From Antarctobacter albus (lineage in GTDB: Bacteria; Pseudomonadota; Alphaproteobacteria; Rhodobacterales; Rhodobacteraceae), in assembly GCF_900101505.1 (NCBI RefSeq), contig NZ_FMZI01000001.1, positions 558,001 through 622,000 of the forward strand: a stretch of 64,000 bases of DNA. Reading direction: 5' to 3'. Below, in pieces: positions 6,292 through 12,237 of the stretch. Under the pieces are notes generated by a model. That model saw only the letters and a list, made by a program, of their open reading frames with translations, did no database searches and had not been told where the DNA came from. Both the position numbers and the translations under genes were made by a program. The stretch's first letter is position 1. Every line of letters starts with the position of its first letter.

Positions 6292-6320
6292 TTGACGCCT
6301 CGTGCCTCGCGCCATAGTGT
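6292..6320 (+). promoter_or_regulatory. Candidate sigma-70 promoter of the ilvB leader
   Basis: TTGACG (6292-6297), 17-bp spacer, TAGTGT (6315-6320). A start a few bases downstream would give a short RNA leader carrying the ilv leader peptide ORF at 6349. The rest of the 338-bp gap 6011-6348 is noncoding and relatively AT-rich near 6180-6280; I see nothing else in it. Confidence 0.5.
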
Positions 6321-6348
6321 CCCCGCGCGATGCAAAGGAGCCTCGGGC

Positions 6349-6396
6349 ATGTCCACGCTAGTGGTAATTGTAGGAACAAGGCGCATGGGCCGGTAA
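6349..6396 (+). CDS. ilvB leader peptide (15 residues, branched-chain rich)
   Basis: A 15-codon ORF encoding MSTLVVIVGTRRMGR, with a strong ribosome site AAAGGAG (6334-6340). Codons 4-8 are Leu-Val-Val-Ile-Val, exactly the products of the pathway that the downstream gene serves. The stop TAA (6394-6396) lies just past the first arm of a 10-bp hairpin that competes with a terminator. This is the layout of classical translation-coupled attenuation: ribosome stalling at the Val/Ile codons when their charged tRNAs are scarce lets the antiterminator form. The ORF, its ribosome site and the hairpins are seen; the mechanism is inferred from the enterobacterial ilv operons. Confidence 0.85.
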   Translation: MSTLVVIVGTRRMGR

Positions 6397-6452
6397 TCCG
6401 GAACCCTTCCAGGACCCCATGCGCCCCCGAACTGACCCTCGGGGGCTTTTTT
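6380..6452 (+). promoter_or_regulatory. ilvB transcription attenuator (antiterminator/terminator pair)
   Basis: Two mutually exclusive stems. Antiterminator: 6380-6389 pairs with 6416-6425 (10 bp, perfect). Terminator: GCCCCCGA (6423-6430) pairs with TCGGGGGC (6439-6446), followed by six T (6447-6452). They share 6423-6425. A ribosome finishing the leader peptide at 6394 would cover 6380-6389 and allow termination; one stalled at the Leu/Val/Ile codons (6358-6372) would leave the antiterminator free. Confidence 0.8.
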
Positions 6453-6491: not shown

Positions 6492-8246
6492 ATGACACGT
6501 CAGATGACCGGAGCGAAAATGGTGGTTCAGGCCCTCAAGGACCAGGGCGTGGACACGGTATTCGGCTATCCCGGCGGCGCTGTACTACCCATCTATGATG
6601 AGGTTTTTCAGCAGAACGACATCCAACACATCCTTGTTCGCCACGAACAGGGCGCGGTCCACGCCGCCGAGGGCTATGCCCGCGCGACCGGCAAGCCCGG
6701 TGTCGTTCTCGTCACCTCCGGCCCCGGGGCGACCAATGCCGTCACCGGGCTCACCGATGCCTTGATGGATTCGATCCCGATCGTCGTCCTGACGGGCCAG
6801 GTGCCGACCTTCATGATCGGCTCGGACGCCTTCCAGGAGGCCGATACCGTCGGCATCACCCGCCCCTGCACCAAGCACAACTGGCTGGTGAAGGACACCG
6901 CGCGGCTGTCGTCGACCATCCACGAGGCCTTTCACGTCGCCACCTCGGGCCGTCCCGGTCCGGTGCTGATCGACATTCCGAAGGACGTGCAGTTCGCCAG
7001 CGCGCAGTACCAGCCGATCCCGAAAACCTCGGTCAGCCACTATCAGCCGCAGGTCAAGGGCGACATGGAGATGATCGAGGCGCTGGTCGAGGCGATCGAG
7101 ATGGCCGAGCGCCCGGTGTTCTATACCGGCGGCGGCGTCATCAACTCGGGGCCCGCGGCCAGCCAGCTGTTGCGGGAACTGGTGGATGCCACCGGCTTTC
7201 CAATCACCTCGACGCTGATGGGCCTCGGCGCCTACCCGGCCTCTGGCCGTCACTGGCTGGGGATGCTGGGGATGCACGGTCTCTACGAGGCCAACCTGGC
7301 GATGCATGGCTGCGACCTGATGATCAACGTGGGCGCGCGGTTCGACGACCGGATCACCGGACGTATCGACGCCTTCAGCCCGAATTCGCACAAGGCGCAT
7401 ATCGACATCGACCCCTCGTCGATCAACAAGGTGATCAAGACCGACATCCCGATCATTGGCGACGTGGGCCATGTCCTTGAAGACGTGCTGAAGGTCTGGA
7501 AATCGCGCGGCCGCAAGGTCAACCGAGAGGCGCTGTCGAAATGGTGGTCGCAGATCGAGGAATGGCGCAAGGTCGATTGTCTCAAGTTCAAGCCCTCGGA
7601 AAACACGATCAAGCCGCAGCACGCGCTGGCCCGGCTCGAGGCGCTGACCAAGGGCCATGACCGCTACATCTGCACCGAGGTCGGTCAACACCAGATGTGG
7701 GCCGCGCAGTACCTTGGCTTCGAGGACCCCAACCGCTGGATGACCTCCGGTGGCTTGGGCACGATGGGCTACGGCTTCCCGGCCTCTGTCGGTGTTCAGG
7801 TGGCGCATCCCGATGCGCTGGTGATCAACGTCGCGGGCGAGGCGTCCTGGTTGATGAACATGCAGGAGATGGGCACTGCGGTTCAGTACCGCCTGCCGGT
7901 CAAGCAGTTCATCCTGAACAATGAACGCCTGGGCATGGTGCGCCAGTGGCAGCAACTCCTGCACGGTGAACGCTATTCCCATTCCTGGAGCGAGGCGCTG
8001 CCCGATTTCGTCAAGCTGGCCGAAGCCTTTGGCGCCAAGGGCATTCACTGCCAGGATCCCGCCGACCTTGACGACGCGATCATGGAAATGATCGAGTATG
8101 ACGGGCCGGTGATCATGGATTGCCTTGTCGAGAAGCATGAGAACTGCTTCCCGATGATCCCCTCGGGCGAGCCGCACAACAAGATGCTGCTCGGCGACGC
8201 CAAGGCCACCAATGCCATCGCCGGCAAGGGGGCTGTGCTGGTCTGA
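6492..8246 (+). CDS. ilvB: Acetolactate synthase, large (catalytic) subunit
   Basis: Catalyses the first common step of valine, leucine and isoleucine synthesis: condensation of two pyruvates, or pyruvate with 2-oxobutyrate, using thiamine diphosphate, Mg and FAD. At 584 residues it is full length. The PYR domain holds the catalytic Glu in RHEQGAVHAAEGYARATG; the central FAD domain is about 195-340; the PP domain is about 375-560 with NNERLGMVRQWQ. The Mg/ThDP motif reads AGEASWLMNMQE where most synthases have GDGS, so the metal-binding Asp is Glu450. Expression is probably controlled by the attenuator upstream, and a strong terminator follows. The regulatory subunit ilvN lies 3.4 kb away instead of directly downstream. 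Confidence 0.97.
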   Translation: MTRQMTGAKMVVQALKDQGVDTVFGYPGGAVLPIYDEVFQQNDIQHILVRHEQGAVHAAEGYARATGKPGVVLVTSGPGATNAVTGLTDALMDSIPIVVLTGQVPTFMIGSDAFQEADTVGITRPCTKHNWLVKDTARLSSTIHEAFHVATSGRPGPVLIDIPKDVQFASAQYQPIPKTSVSHYQPQVKGDMEMIEALVEAIEMAERPVFYTGGGVINSGPAASQLLRELVDATGFPITSTLMGLGAYPASGRHWLGMLGMHGLYEANLAMHGCDLMINVGARFDDRITGRIDAFSPNSHKAHIDIDPSSINKVIKTDIPIIGDVGHVLEDVLKVWKSRGRKVNREALSKWWSQIEEWRKVDCLKFKPSENTIKPQHALARLEALTKGHDRYICTEVGQHQMWAAQYLGFEDPNRWMTSGGLGTMGYGFPASVGVQVAHPDALVINVAGEASWLMNMQEMGTAVQYRLPVKQFILNNERLGMVRQWQQLLHGERYSHSWSEALPDFVKLAEAFGAKGIHCQDPADLDDAIMEMIEYDGPVIMDCLVEKHENCFPMIPSGEPHNKMLLGDAKATNAIAGKGAVLV

Positions 8247-8451: not shown

Positions 8452-9432
8452 ATGAGCGACCCAGCAGGCCGCTTGCACTGGCTGGACCGGGCCAAGGGCG
8501 CGGGCATCATCCTCGTGGTTTTCGGCCATGCCTGGCTCGGCGCGCAAGCGTCGGGGGTGCTGGCCCCGGGCACGCTGTTCCGCACCGTCGAGACGGTGAT
8601 CTACAGCTTCCACATGCCCCTGTTCTTTCTGCTGTCCGGCGTCACCTTCGAGGCCTCGGCCCGCCGCCGTCCGCTGGTCCGGGGCATGAAGGACAAGGCG
8701 ATCCGCCTGCTCTGGCCCCTGCTCTTGTGGACCTATGTCTTTGCCGGTTTTCGTTTTCTCGCCGGTGGCGCGGCGAACAATCCGGAGGGGTTGTCCGGCC
8801 TGCTGGTTTGGCCCCTGCCGCCGCGCGATCACCTGTGGTTCCTCTGGGCGCTGTTCCTGATCCAGGTGCTCGGTCTGCTTGTCGCGGTGCCGGGAAAGTC
8901 ACCGCGCCCGGCCTGGCTCTGGCTGGTTCTCGCACTGGGTGCCGGCGGGCTGGTCTCGCTTCCCGGTTTGCCGCTGGGGCCGCTGACGGTGAACGCCGCG
9001 CTGCACCTGGGGATCTTTCTGCTGGGCATCTGGCTGGCACGACAACCGCCTCTGCCCTCGGGTCTGCCGGTGGCGCTGAAGGCAATGACGGTTTTCGTCG
9101 CGGTGCAACTGGTCAGCTTTGCCCTGCCCGAAACCGTGCTGGGCTTTCAGGTTGTCGCGGCGCTGCTCTCGCTCTGTTTCATCGTCATGATGAATGCCCC
9201 GCAGGGCGATGGCGGGCGTCTGGGCCGCGTGCTGGAACGGTTGGGGCAGCTCTCGATGCCGATCTACCTGGCACACACGCTGTTCACGGCTGCCACGCGG
9301 ATCGTCCTGTTCAAGTTCACCACCGATGCCACGGTGCACCTGGTGATGGGCACCCTGGCCGGTCTGATCGGCCCTGTCCTGCTGTATTATGCCTTGCGCC
9401 GCATTGCGTCCCCACGGCTCCTCGGGTTCTGA
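8452..9432 (+). CDS. Membrane acyltransferase (acyltransferase 3 family)
   Basis: Integral membrane O-acyltransferase of 326 residues with about ten hydrophobic segments. The N-terminus RLHWLDRAKGAGIILVVFGHAW carries the family's Arg and catalytic-type His, followed by the second helix YSFHMPLFFLLSG. Members acetylate or succinylate sugars of exopolysaccharides, glucans or lipids at the membrane; the acceptor cannot be told here. The ATG at 8452 has GGAGG eight bases upstream. It stands alone between the ilvB terminator and the convergent sensor kinase. Confidence 0.88.
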   Translation: MSDPAGRLHWLDRAKGAGIILVVFGHAWLGAQASGVLAPGTLFRTVETVIYSFHMPLFFLLSGVTFEASARRRPLVRGMKDKAIRLLWPLLLWTYVFAGFRFLAGGAANNPEGLSGLLVWPLPPRDHLWFLWALFLIQVLGLLVAVPGKSPRPAWLWLVLALGAGGLVSLPGLPLGPLTVNAALHLGIFLLGIWLARQPPLPSGLPVALKAMTVFVAVQLVSFALPETVLGFQVVAALLSLCFIVMMNAPQGDGGRLGRVLERLGQLSMPIYLAHTLFTAATRIVLFKFTTDATVHLVMGTLAGLIGPVLLYYALRRIASPRLLGF

Positions 9433-9444
9433 GGGTCATCGACG

Positions 9445-11484
9445 TCAGCCGGCAACCCTTGTCCCATCCCCGCCCTCCAGCTGCGTGGCGATGGCCTGCA
9501 TCAGGGTCGAGCTGCGCACAGGCTTGCTGAGGAACCCATCCATGCCGACAGCCCGGGCCTCTTCGCGGTCCTTCTCGAAGGCGTTGCCGGTCAGCGCGAT
9601 GATTGGCCGGTGAGGCCACCCCCGCAGCCGGGCGGTCTCGCGGATCATGCGGGTGGCATCCAGTCCGTTCATCACCGGCATCGAAAGATCCATGAGGACA
9701 AGATCGAAACGGTCGGGATGAAAAAGCTCGACCGCCGCGCGGCCATCGTCGACAAGGGTGACCGCGGCGCCCCGCCGTTCCAGCAGCTTCTGGGCGACTG
9801 CCTGATTGGTGCGGTTATCCTCGGCCACGAGGACGCGAATGCCGTCCAGCCGCATCTGAGCCAAGGCTAGGGGTTCCGACAGCGGTTTACCAGACGCAAC
9901 CGCAGGCAAGGGCAGATCCACAACAAAGACCGACCCGACACCCGGATCGGACCGGGCGGAAATTTCTCCGCCCATCGCGTCGATCAACCGTTTGGAGATG
10001 GTCAGCCCCAGCCCGGTCCCCTCAAAGGCGCGGTCGCGCCCCTGGTGGACCTGCTCGAACGGGTCGAATATCGCGGACAGCCGATCCGCGGGGATGCCTA
10101 TACCCGTGTCGGCAACCGCAAAGCGCAAATTGCCACCCGAGGGCGCCACCCGTGACAGGTGCAGGGACACCTCGCCCGCGACCGTGAACTTGATTGCATT
10201 GCCCATCAGGTTCATCAGCACCTGGCGGATTCGCAACGCATCGCCAGCCACGACCCCGGGAACATCCGCATCCACGGTGCAGCGCAGGCCCAGCCCCTTT
10301 TGCCCGGCCAATGGCACCAACAGGTGTCGCACTTCCTCGACCAGCGACGCCGGGGCAAAAGGCGCCTGTTCGATTTCCAGGCGGCCGGCCTCGACCTTGG
10401 AGAAATCGAGGATGTCCGAAATCAGCGAGGTCAGGGCCAGCGCGGCACTGCGTATCGTAGCGACATAGTCGGCCTGCTCGGCACTGAGATCGGTTTCGGT
10501 GAGCAGGTCCGCCATGCCGACGATGCCATTCATCGGGGTCCGGATCTCGTGGCTCATGTTGGCGAGAAAGCTGGACTTGGCCTTGTTCGCCACATCCGCC
10601 GCATCCCGCGCCGCCCGCAAGGCGGCGTTCTGGTTGCGCAGGTCGGTGATGTCGGTGTGGACCAGCACATGCCCGCCCGAGGGGCGCGGCGTGGCCTGCA
10701 GGTAGAAACTTCGCCCCGAATCCGGGATGCGCAGCATCACCTTTTCCCCTGCGCTCAGCATCTCCTGCACTTCGACGTGAAACTGTTCGTCCCCGGTCGC
10801 CTTGTTCCAGGCGATCAGCTGGTCGATGTGATCGCGAAACCGCATGCCCACGGGAACGTCGCCGTTGCCCAGACCGTGCAGGCGCAGGTACGCGGCGTTG
10901 ACCCGCAGGATGCGGTTTTCCGGATCATCGATCCTTGTGCCGCTGGTGACAAGCAGCCCCTCGCCCATGCCCTCGACGATTTCCGTCAGCAGGCGATTGG
11001 TTTCGGTCAGCTCGGCGGCCTTGGCGACAAGACTCTGTTCCAGCGCGGCGGTGCGGCGGTTCAGACCTGCGATCAGGGAATCGGCGACCTCGGCCTTGCG
11101 CAGCACATCGCTGATGTTGAGCGTGATGCCGTGATAGCCGGCGAACCGCCCGTCGGCGTCGTGCAGCGGAACGGCACTGTCCATCAGGACCGCCCGGCTG
11201 CCGTTGACCAGCACGCGTTCGTAGCTGAGGCTGCGGATTTCCTGGCCCGCGCGCATCACCTGCATCAACCGGTCGATCCCGGCCTGGTCCTGACCCTGTC
11301 CCTCTGGCGACAGGATACGCAGGCCAATCAATTCGTCGGCGGTCATGCGCAGGCCCGAATGGCGGATGTTCACGTAGCGCAGCCGGAAATCGGCATCCGC
11401 CTGCCACGTCCATGCCGGCATCAGGTGGATCACGTCCGACCAGATCCGGGCGTCTTTTTCCGTGTCGGAGTCCGTGGCGGGCAT
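9445..11484 (-). CDS. Hybrid sensor histidine kinase with PAS domains and a receiver
   Basis: Cytoplasmic hybrid kinase, about 679 residues, with no membrane segment. Order: PAS-like domain about 15-130 (ends [12 protein letters not shown]), a short coiled coil about 130-170, a second PAS-like domain about 170-285 of the PAS-7 type found in Rhodobacterales kinases, HisKA with H312 in [13 protein letters not shown], an ATPase domain with [16 protein letters not shown] and [12 protein letters not shown], and a C-terminal receiver about 550-670 with VLVAEDN and [12 protein letters not shown]. The frame is open 40 codons further upstream; the start at 11484 precedes the first recognisable domain, but the exact start is uncertain. 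It has no partner regulator nearby and separates ilvB from ilvN on the opposite strand. Confidence 0.9.
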
Positions 11485-11676
11485 CAAGGCGGCTTTCCAG
11501 TGGGCAACGCGCCCGGGGCGCGGCGGAACCGGCGTAGCGCGAAACGATTGACAGGCCATTAAATGCCGTGGGGACGGCCTTTTGCGCCGCTCTCTTCTGG
11601 TCAAAGCCCTCGATCTTGGCTAAACCTTCCGCGGCCCGTCGCCCGGCGGGCCGGCACTCCTCAGAAAGGCCCAGAG

Positions 11677-12237
11677 ATGTCAGCACTCAAGATCAAGAAA
11701 GGCTCGAGCAAGCACTCCGCCTACAACCTCCGCCCGAATTTCTCGGACGTGCAGGAGACGCATACCGTCGCCGTGCTTGTAGAGAACGAGCCGGGCGTGC
11801 TGGCGCGCGTGATCGGGCTGTTCTCGGGGCGTGGCTACAACATCGACAGCCTGACCGTGGCAGAGGTCGACCATGAAGGTCACCTGAGCCGGATCACCAT
11901 CGTCACCAGCGGCACACCGCAGGTGATCGAACAGATCAAGGCACAGCTGGGGCGTATCGTCTCCGTGCGCGACGTGCACGACCTGACGGTCGAAGGCAAA
12001 TCCGTCGAGCGCGAACTGGCCCTGCTGAAGGTTGCGGGATCGGGGGACAAACGCGTCGAGGCCCTGCGGCTGGCGGATATCTTTCGTGCCAATGTCGTCG
12101 ACTCGACGCTGGAAAGCTTTGTCTTTCAGCTGACGGGTACGCCCGACAAGATCGACGCCTTCGCCGACCTCATGCGCCCGCTGGGCCTGACCGAGGTCGC
12201 GAGAACCGGTGTGGCCGCGCTGGCACGCGGGGCCTGA
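11677..12237 (+). CDS. ilvN: Acetolactate synthase, small (regulatory) subunit
   Basis: Regulatory subunit that stabilises and activates the catalytic subunit and confers feedback inhibition by valine-type amino acids; 186 residues. An N-terminal ACT domain is visible (THTVAVLVENEPGVLARVIGLFSGRGYNIDSL, about 28-100), followed by the C-terminal ACT-like domain of the family with VERELALLKV. The ATG at 11677 is preceded by AGAAAGG; the frame is open further upstream but the extra residues do not resemble the family. It has the same orientation as ilvB but is separated by a terminator, an acyltransferase gene and an opposing kinase gene, so it must have its own promoter within about 190 bp of noncoding sequence. 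Confidence 0.96.
   Translation: MSALKIKKGSSKHSAYNLRPNFSDVQETHTVAVLVENEPGVLARVIGLFSGRGYNIDSLTVAEVDHEGHLSRITIVTSGTPQVIEQIKAQLGRIVSVRDVHDLTVEGKSVERELALLKVAGSGDKRVEALRLADIFRANVVDSTLESFVFQLTGTPDKIDAFADLMRPLGLTEVARTGVAALARGA

Follow-up and report, generated by a model that had tools for sequence, protein, structure and literature searches.

A candidate ribosome-mediated transcription attenuator for branched-chain amino acids upstream of ilvB in Antarctobacter albus, and related leaders upstream of a transporter

The window, i.e., the whole 64,000-nt stretch of Antarctobacter albus DNA analysed here, comprises an ilvB gene preceded by a compact leader region, whose elements are collected in Table 1. 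Those named by the first-pass annotation, including (i) the TTGACG/TAGTGT pair and the AAAGGAG site, (ii) the 15-codon open reading frame (ORF) with Leu-Val-Val-Ile-Val at codons 4-8, and (iii) the arms of the 10-bp antiterminator and the 8-bp terminator with its T run, are confirmed letter by letter. The intrinsic terminator sits between the leader ORF and ilvB and, with the ribosome edges assumed here, the 5′ arm of the antiterminator lies under a ribosome at the stop codon, as had been proposed for a ribosome finishing the peptide.

Table 1. Features of the ilvB leader region and associated genes (window coordinates).
Feature	Position	Strand	Evidence
Promoter TTGACG, 17 nt, TAGTGT	6292-6297, 6315-6320 (6292..6320)	+	Sequence; relatives
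Ribosome-binding site AAAGGAG of leader ORF	6334..6340	+	Sequence; purine-rich stretches in relatives (by eye)
Leader ORF MSTLVVIVGTRRMGR followed by stop, ATG 6349 to TAA 6394-6396	6349..6396	+	Sequence, relatives, codon counts
Regulatory codons CTA GTG GTA ATT GTA (leader codons 4-8)	6358-6372	+	
Antiterminator 5′ arm GGCGCATGGG, overlapping the last leader codons	6380..6389	+	Pair analyses of alignments
Small inner hairpin CCGGTAATCCGG, stop codon in loop	6390..6401	+	Predicted fold; outer-pair changes
Antiterminator 3′ arm CCCATGCGCC (10 bp with 5′ arm); last 3 nt, 6423-6425, common to terminator	6416..6425	+	
Intrinsic terminator, 8-bp stem 6423-6446, then TTTTTT 6447-6452	6423..6452	+	
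ilvB, acetolactate synthase large subunit, regulated gene	6492..8246	+	NF006581, 1132.7 bits (cut-off 974)
ilvN/ilvH small subunit, 3.4 kb from ilvB here	11677..12237	+	NF008864, 223.7 bits (cut-off 119)

The earlier description of ilvB as a stand-alone gene holds for the window, where it lies apart from ilvN, and does not extend to its relatives: the ilvN start lies less than 300 nt from ilvB in 60 of the 76 relatives (from a set of 80) with ilvN found on the DNA read, the attenuator usually standing before an ilvB-ilvN pair. Between the two genes (8452-11604), the window has a gene for an acyltransferase (PF01757) and, on the opposite strand, one for a hybrid histidine kinase, and ilvN is therefore probably outside the control of the attenuator here.

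The window sequence on its own appears to offer modest support, and the comparison with relatives carries the case. The leader folds have z-scores of -2.18 and -2.36, and in each case 5 of 200 shuffles reach the same stability or a greater one; terminator-like sites in the region, counted on both strands, are not above shuffled sequence (2 found vs a mean of 2.1), and the TTGACG/TAGTGT pair is not among the promoters listed by a mechanical promoter scan. The leader stands above chance because it is conserved among relatives.

The alignment of ilvB relatives, suggested beforehand as a check, speaks for the leader. Among the best 80 ilvB loci of a longer list, all from named genomes and the nearest being Mameliella sediminis (94% protein identity), 78 display the same leader ORF, 15 or 16 codons long and closing with R-M-(G/A/D)-R; the exceptions are L017, whose contig begins inside the leader with the tail visible, and L039, with the different peptide MKILISVVVR. 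Together with the window, these make 79 leaders, of which 75 have 15 codons and 4 have 16, starting with ATG (68), GTG (9) or TTG (2). Among the 75 leaders of 15 codons, each of codons 4-8 specifies leucine, isoleucine or valine in 69-74 sequences, and each of codons 9-15 does so in at most 3. A short leader ORF with clustered end-product codons, predicted to be translated, is found at the sequence level. The promoter-like element is likewise preserved: TTGAC lies no more than 75 nt from the start of the leader in 78 of 79 sequences, the miss (L049) having too little upstream sequence, and 17 nt further on TAATGT is the best hexamer in 50 of these 78, most of the rest having similar hexamers and a few having poor ones, e.g., CATAAG and TAAAAC.

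A covariance model, R1, built from the 79 leaders, which are related sequences, matches 138 of 149 genomes of an order sample, covering 69 of 73 genera; this sample comprises the window's own family only, and its strict filters can lose weak matches. Six of the 11 genomes without a match (G291, G307, G333, G339, G377 and G398) belong to a single genus, g227. The ilvB site is the only R1 match in the window's own genome, and the gene adjoining 20 R1 matches chosen as weak or second is ilvB in 16, a transporter in three and neither in one. Two variants deserve mention. The ilvB leader at L203 (209-305) keeps a Leu-Val-Ile-Val-Val run with no ATG, GTG or TTG at the expected start, an in-frame ATC or ATT being present. 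At L199 (1530-1630, minus strand), the leader MAYILVVVT ends after nine codons, just ahead of the arm, and the arm letters are kept, which suggests a constraint on the RNA rather than on the peptide; a conserved functional peptide as the main cause of the RMGR letters is rejected on this ground.

The choice of codons within the leaders departs markedly from that of the genes they precede. Within leader codons 2-9, CTA accounts for 62 of 95 leucine codons and GTA for 111 of 223 valine codons; in the ilvB genes that follow these leaders, the respective figures are 72 of 3599 and 167 of 3439. These counts come from related rows, and their p-values are not independent. Isoleucine is encoded by ATC (45), ATT (35) and ATA (1). 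This preference for rare codons fits a sensing of amino acid supply via scarce tRNAs and seems to point to leucine and valine, isoleucine being less clear. Enterobacterial leu leaders employ rare leucine codons.

The proposed check of stem covariation lends support in the terminator and in a divergent set of leaders, and not in the antiterminator of the 79 close sequences. In the latter, each cell is paired at all seven terminator stem pairs tested, and three of these pairs show double-sided changes, a figure reached by none of 500 shuffles. Five of the ten antiterminator pairs never vary in these sequences and none shows a double change; with the inner hairpin included, one pair is double-changed, which 174 of 500 shuffles also reach, and 92.9% of the cells are paired, more than in any shuffle. 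The divergent set comprises 47 leaders, matched out of 48 sources given to R1, some close copies being among the sources, as well as four rows or loci taken from the first set. Here, double changes occur at 10 of 17 pairs, distributed over the antiterminator stem (3/10), the stop-codon hairpin (3/3) and the terminator part (4/4), with none of 500 shuffles reaching the observed values and slid versions giving 0-5; the alignment is fitted to the structure, which leans these counts, so that they provide support rather than proof. Only 28 of the 47 form one of the outer pairs. The inner hairpin in most relatives reads CCG-GUAA-CGG, with a GNRA-type loop holding the stop codon, and its outer pair changes from C-G to U-A in 3 of 79 and 6 of 47 sequences. 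The letters of the antiterminator arms are conserved beyond the needs of pairing.

The claim that the two hairpins cannot coexist is not confirmed by the folding analysis. They share 3 nt only (6423-6425); the predicted minimum-energy fold combines a 7-bp antiterminator stem with the full terminator, and in 75 of the 79 sequences a full terminator beside a shortened antiterminator is favoured over the opposite arrangement (mean 2.6 kcal/mol), a comparison that uses fixed alignment pairs and in which the inner hairpin of the window is misregistered in both states. Under the assumed ribosome edges, (i) a fold with the stop codon occupied forms the terminator alone, (ii) a stall at codon 4 with RNA made to 6432 forms the 10-bp antiterminator, and (iii) stalled-ribosome folds with RNA made to 6449 display both hairpins. 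Antitermination would have to be kinetic, and mutual exclusion of the two hairpins is the weakest step of the attenuation model. In enterobacterial ilv/leu attenuators, the alternative arms overlap over a long stretch and a protector hairpin is present. In the window, as long as the second arm is still to be made, the naked RNA (6327-6401) is predicted to show a partial pairing between the 5′ arm and the region of the ribosome site, which may act as a protector.

A search of the window against Rfam, likewise recommended at the outset, returns no family at its gathering threshold and a sub-threshold likeness to RF02502, filed in Rfam as the Rhizobiales small RNA (sRNA) Atu_C8 (27 bits, E 0.0007-0.0013, the gathering cut-off of 50 not being reached); a known riboswitch or T-box is set aside on the same absence of gathering-level matches. 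Conversely, R1 scores RF02502-type copies at only 18-27 bits. Matches to anti-hemB (RF02837) are weak (12.6-21.9 bits vs 49.5). RF02502 and the window element share the order of their parts, the GCGCAUGGG/CCCAUGCGC stem, a leader containing VVGRRMGR and, in S. meliloti and Shinella, a position directly before acetolactate synthase. They differ in the inner hairpin and in the terminator, which lies 7-9 nt from the hairpin in the RF02502 copies read by eye; across such a gap the two structures cannot exclude each other, so that exclusion is no mechanism common to both types. The match in S. meliloti Ak57 (L300, 1479-1599, 121.1 bits) is directly upstream of a gene annotated as 'acetolactate synthase 3 large subunit' and encodes the branched-chain leader MKNFAVILVVGRRMGRMV, the other RF02502-type leader at acetolactate synthase being MKNLTAIILVVGRRMGRVV, each followed by a stop codon. 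Judged by the letters, layout and gene that they have in common, the element of the window and RF02502 appear to be branches of one attenuator family, in the sense of kinship and not of formal membership.

RF02502 is also found before a Bcr/CflA-type transporter in Rhizobium. All six above-cut-off matches in 36 genomes from the order of G107 are directly upstream of the transporter. In the class sample, RF02502 occurs at E ≤0.01 in 15 genomes, one of them above the cut-off; five sub-threshold places examined comprise two at ilvB (L269, L270) and three at neither gene (L271, L280, L284). A BLAST search with the Rhizobium lusitanum copy against named plasmid records retrieves 17 records, including 12 with a transporter match 68-141 nt further on and three at acetolactate synthase (S. 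meliloti Ak57, Shinella and Sinorhizobium sp. K101), the remaining two being H38 and H39.

The same genomic association emerges from R1. The model matches 11 of 289 genomes in the class sample, namely four from the window's family, one spurious-looking and six from other families; these six all lie just upstream of the transporter, four being strong (E 1.6e-13 to 6.1e-12) and two weaker (8.1e-6 and 4.2e-5). The transporter reaches the cut-off of the Bcr/CflA subfamily TIGR00710 in both cases scanned (217.3 and 213.4 bits vs 200.9). Leaders of the wider family are placed directly ahead of a Bcr/CflA-type major facilitator superfamily (MFS) transporter across several alphaproteobacterial families, and two Burkholderia records show the same arrangement (loci L191, L193, L195, L211-L213, L215, L216, L218, L220, L242, L287-L291, L294, L295, L299, L302 and L303). 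L245 is rejected as a further leader, a terminator being present and an R1 match absent. The Burkholderia copies, outside the class, score 59.7 and 58.3 bits with R1 and encode the leaders MKTACFIVVVHRRRVR and MKTTCFIVVVHRRRVR, each closed by a stop codon.

Compared with the window element, transporter leaders score 60-76 bits with R1 and preserve the same arms and the same terminator (L191, L211-L213, L220, L295, L299), with the CCGGUAACGG stop-codon hairpin in L211, L212 and L220; they differ in the gene controlled and in the dominance of valine. Across 18 of them, near-duplicates included, valine prevails with 65 codons over isoleucine (15) and leucine (14), and the L216 leader has no branched-chain run. 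Leaders accompany 7 of 30 transporter relatives in the class set and 4 of 27 in the order set among those with the upstream region read, and most transporter relatives have no such leader. The window's own genome carries two transporter paralogs (44-45% identity), and no leader is present at the one with its upstream region read (L224). Within the window's family, G416 and G314 hold both an ilvB copy and a transporter copy, and G404 combines a transporter copy with a second strong R1 match.

A tree of 57 transporter rows, in which some inner support is very low, places 18 leader-bearing rows (near-duplicates included) in one clade of 26 with a support of 0.977. This clade also holds two transporters preceded by thiamine pyrophosphate (TPP) riboswitches, L293 (609-725, Agrobacterium tumefaciens pAt2) and L296 (606-722, a Mesorhizobium mediterraneum plasmid), and such neighbours hint at the transport of nutrients, not drugs. 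Among the plasmid records, 25 have a transporter match, and the 19 of these that were examined comprise (i) 15 with a wider-family leader, i.e., 12 of the BLAST set, Leisingera caerulea and the two Burkholderia, (ii) two with a TPP riboswitch, and (iii) two with neither (L297, L298).

Considered together, the region 6292-6452 is very probably a ribosome-mediated transcription attenuator for branched-chain amino acids standing before ilvB. Attenuation of ilvB by a branched-chain leader peptide, the central claim of the first-pass annotation, is well supported at the level of sequence comparison, owing to conservation, rare-codon choice and compensatory changes, divergent copies included; the computed elements are the anatomy, the conservation, the rare-codon choice and the pair-preserving changes in sets with divergent copies. 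The label 'translational attenuator' is better replaced by transcription attenuation, acting by an intrinsic terminator. In the proposed mechanism, transcription would begin just after 6320 and the 15-codon leader would be translated while emerging. When the charged Leu- and Val-tRNAs reading CTA and GTA are scarce, the ribosome would stall at codons 4-8 and leave 6380-6389 free, allowing the 10-bp antiterminator to form before the terminator is made and to loop the stop codon out in the small inner hairpin; as the last three antiterminator pairs are held, the terminator stem would be kept 3 nt from the U run and ilvB would be transcribed. When these tRNAs are plentiful, the ribosome would reach the stop codon at 6394 and cover 6380-6389, so that the 8-bp terminator forms and ends transcription about 40 nt before ilvB. 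The switch would then most likely turn ilvB up when leucine or valine is low; we infer this read-out, the dominant amino acid and the kinetic sufficiency of the 3-nt overlap for antitermination.

In a variant of this reading, the hairpin acts with no mutual exclusion, e.g., packed 0-9 nt upstream of the terminator and hindering terminator folding or the polymerase, the position of the ribosome still deciding its formation. An overlap of 3 nt or none, the close spacing and the nearly invariant hairpin letters are in keeping with this variant, which we hold to be possible though on balance unlikely, as a 3-nt shift of the terminator stem off the U run could suffice alone. A further departure views the locus mainly as a small-RNA gene, the terminated leader of ~125 nt being a stable RNA whose function lies in trans or in an encoded peptide, and ilvB read-through being secondary. 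Such a role would agree with the filing of RF02502 as an sRNA, with arm letters kept beyond what pairing requires and with the lack of overlap between hairpin and terminator in the RF02502 type, and a precedent is provided by the trp leader of S. meliloti, with RNA and peptide acting in trans (PMC7298713, PMC10117765). It is nevertheless improbable, given that R1 and above-cut-off RF02502 matches with an identified neighbour precede ilvB/ilvI or one transporter clade, with only two low-scoring exceptions (L092, which looks like a spurious terminator match, and L196, at neither ilvB nor transporter), that the regulatory codons are the rare branched-chain ones, and that the last leader residues differ among transporter copies (CMVR, RLDR, CLGR, GKAA). 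A constitutive terminator beside a chance ORF, with no regulation at all, would accommodate the weak single-sequence statistics; conservation and codon choice rule it out, the pair changes add to them, and we give it next to no credence.

At the widest, the ilvB leader, RF02502 and the transporter leaders might represent one old RNA family that couples branched-chain synthesis with a valine-responsive transporter mislabelled as multidrug efflux, its nearly invariant hairpin working otherwise than by exclusion and perhaps also in trans as an sRNA, a doubtful proposition when taken as a whole. R1 offers a covariance model of a family whose coverage in Rfam seems to be incomplete and under an sRNA name. 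The transporter leaders lead to the prediction that a clade of 'multidrug efflux' transporters is under branched-chain amino acid control, with a substrate that may be a nutrient or a metabolite. How such leaders antiterminate, given that hairpin and terminator overlap briefly or not at all, is a testable question.

Vitreschak 2004 is said to predict, in its abstract, such attenuators for the alphaproteobacterial ilvIH operon, and the anatomy in the window appears to agree with this type, i.e., a leader peptide and alternative hairpins upstream of the acetolactate synthase operon, with a reservation regarding exclusive hairpins. The suggestion that the arrangement is little described does not stand, its kind being known from passages on Caulobacter ilvBN leader attenuation (PMC4117421, citing Tarleton 1994) and on an alphaproteobacterial 'ilvB leader peptide' termed previously described (PMC1273637, citing Vitreschak 2004), the latter citation also accompanying an 'ilvIH cis regulatory' element of S. 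meliloti in PMC2573895. As described in PMC4117421, Caulobacter crescentus ilvBN shares with the window tandem branched-chain leader codons and a Rho-independent terminator before acetolactate synthase, whereas the window has a leader of 15 codons and hairpins that overlap by only 3 nt. Enterobacterial ilv/leu attenuators have in common with it a branched-chain-rich leader peptide and an antiterminator, the E. coli leaders being 28-32 residues long compared with 15 codons in the window, according to PMC6123439. The uORFC-8-2 motif before cysS of Rhodobacterales, as outlined in PMC8632094, is likewise a candidate for ribosome-mediated attenuation in the same order, differing in its Cys codons and in the gene concerned. 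Among the titles and abstract openings searched, no link of RF02502 or of this transporter to branched-chain attenuation was found, which is not a claim of absence in print. The finding as given is a well-conserved example of known regulation; the window element belongs to a known kind, and what is added, within the reach of these searches, is the association with the transporter and the new reading of RF02502.

Beyond the window's family, leaders with the same letters were not recognised before ilvB by an ORF filter and inspection by eye, covering 25 of the 26 more distant loci L097-L122 (all but L115; L120 with only 155 nt upstream of the anchor) and 40 further upstream stretches. Different-looking leaders do occur there: L116, from position 1112, displays the ilvB leader MSSRTALVVTRPPEVVG, ending at a stop codon and followed by a GC-rich hairpin and a T run, and L162 and G189 carry MSEVLVIRHP and MSLLIVPCAPNEGLA, respectively, both similarly terminated. 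These three may be attenuators of another make, L116 being perhaps unrelated.
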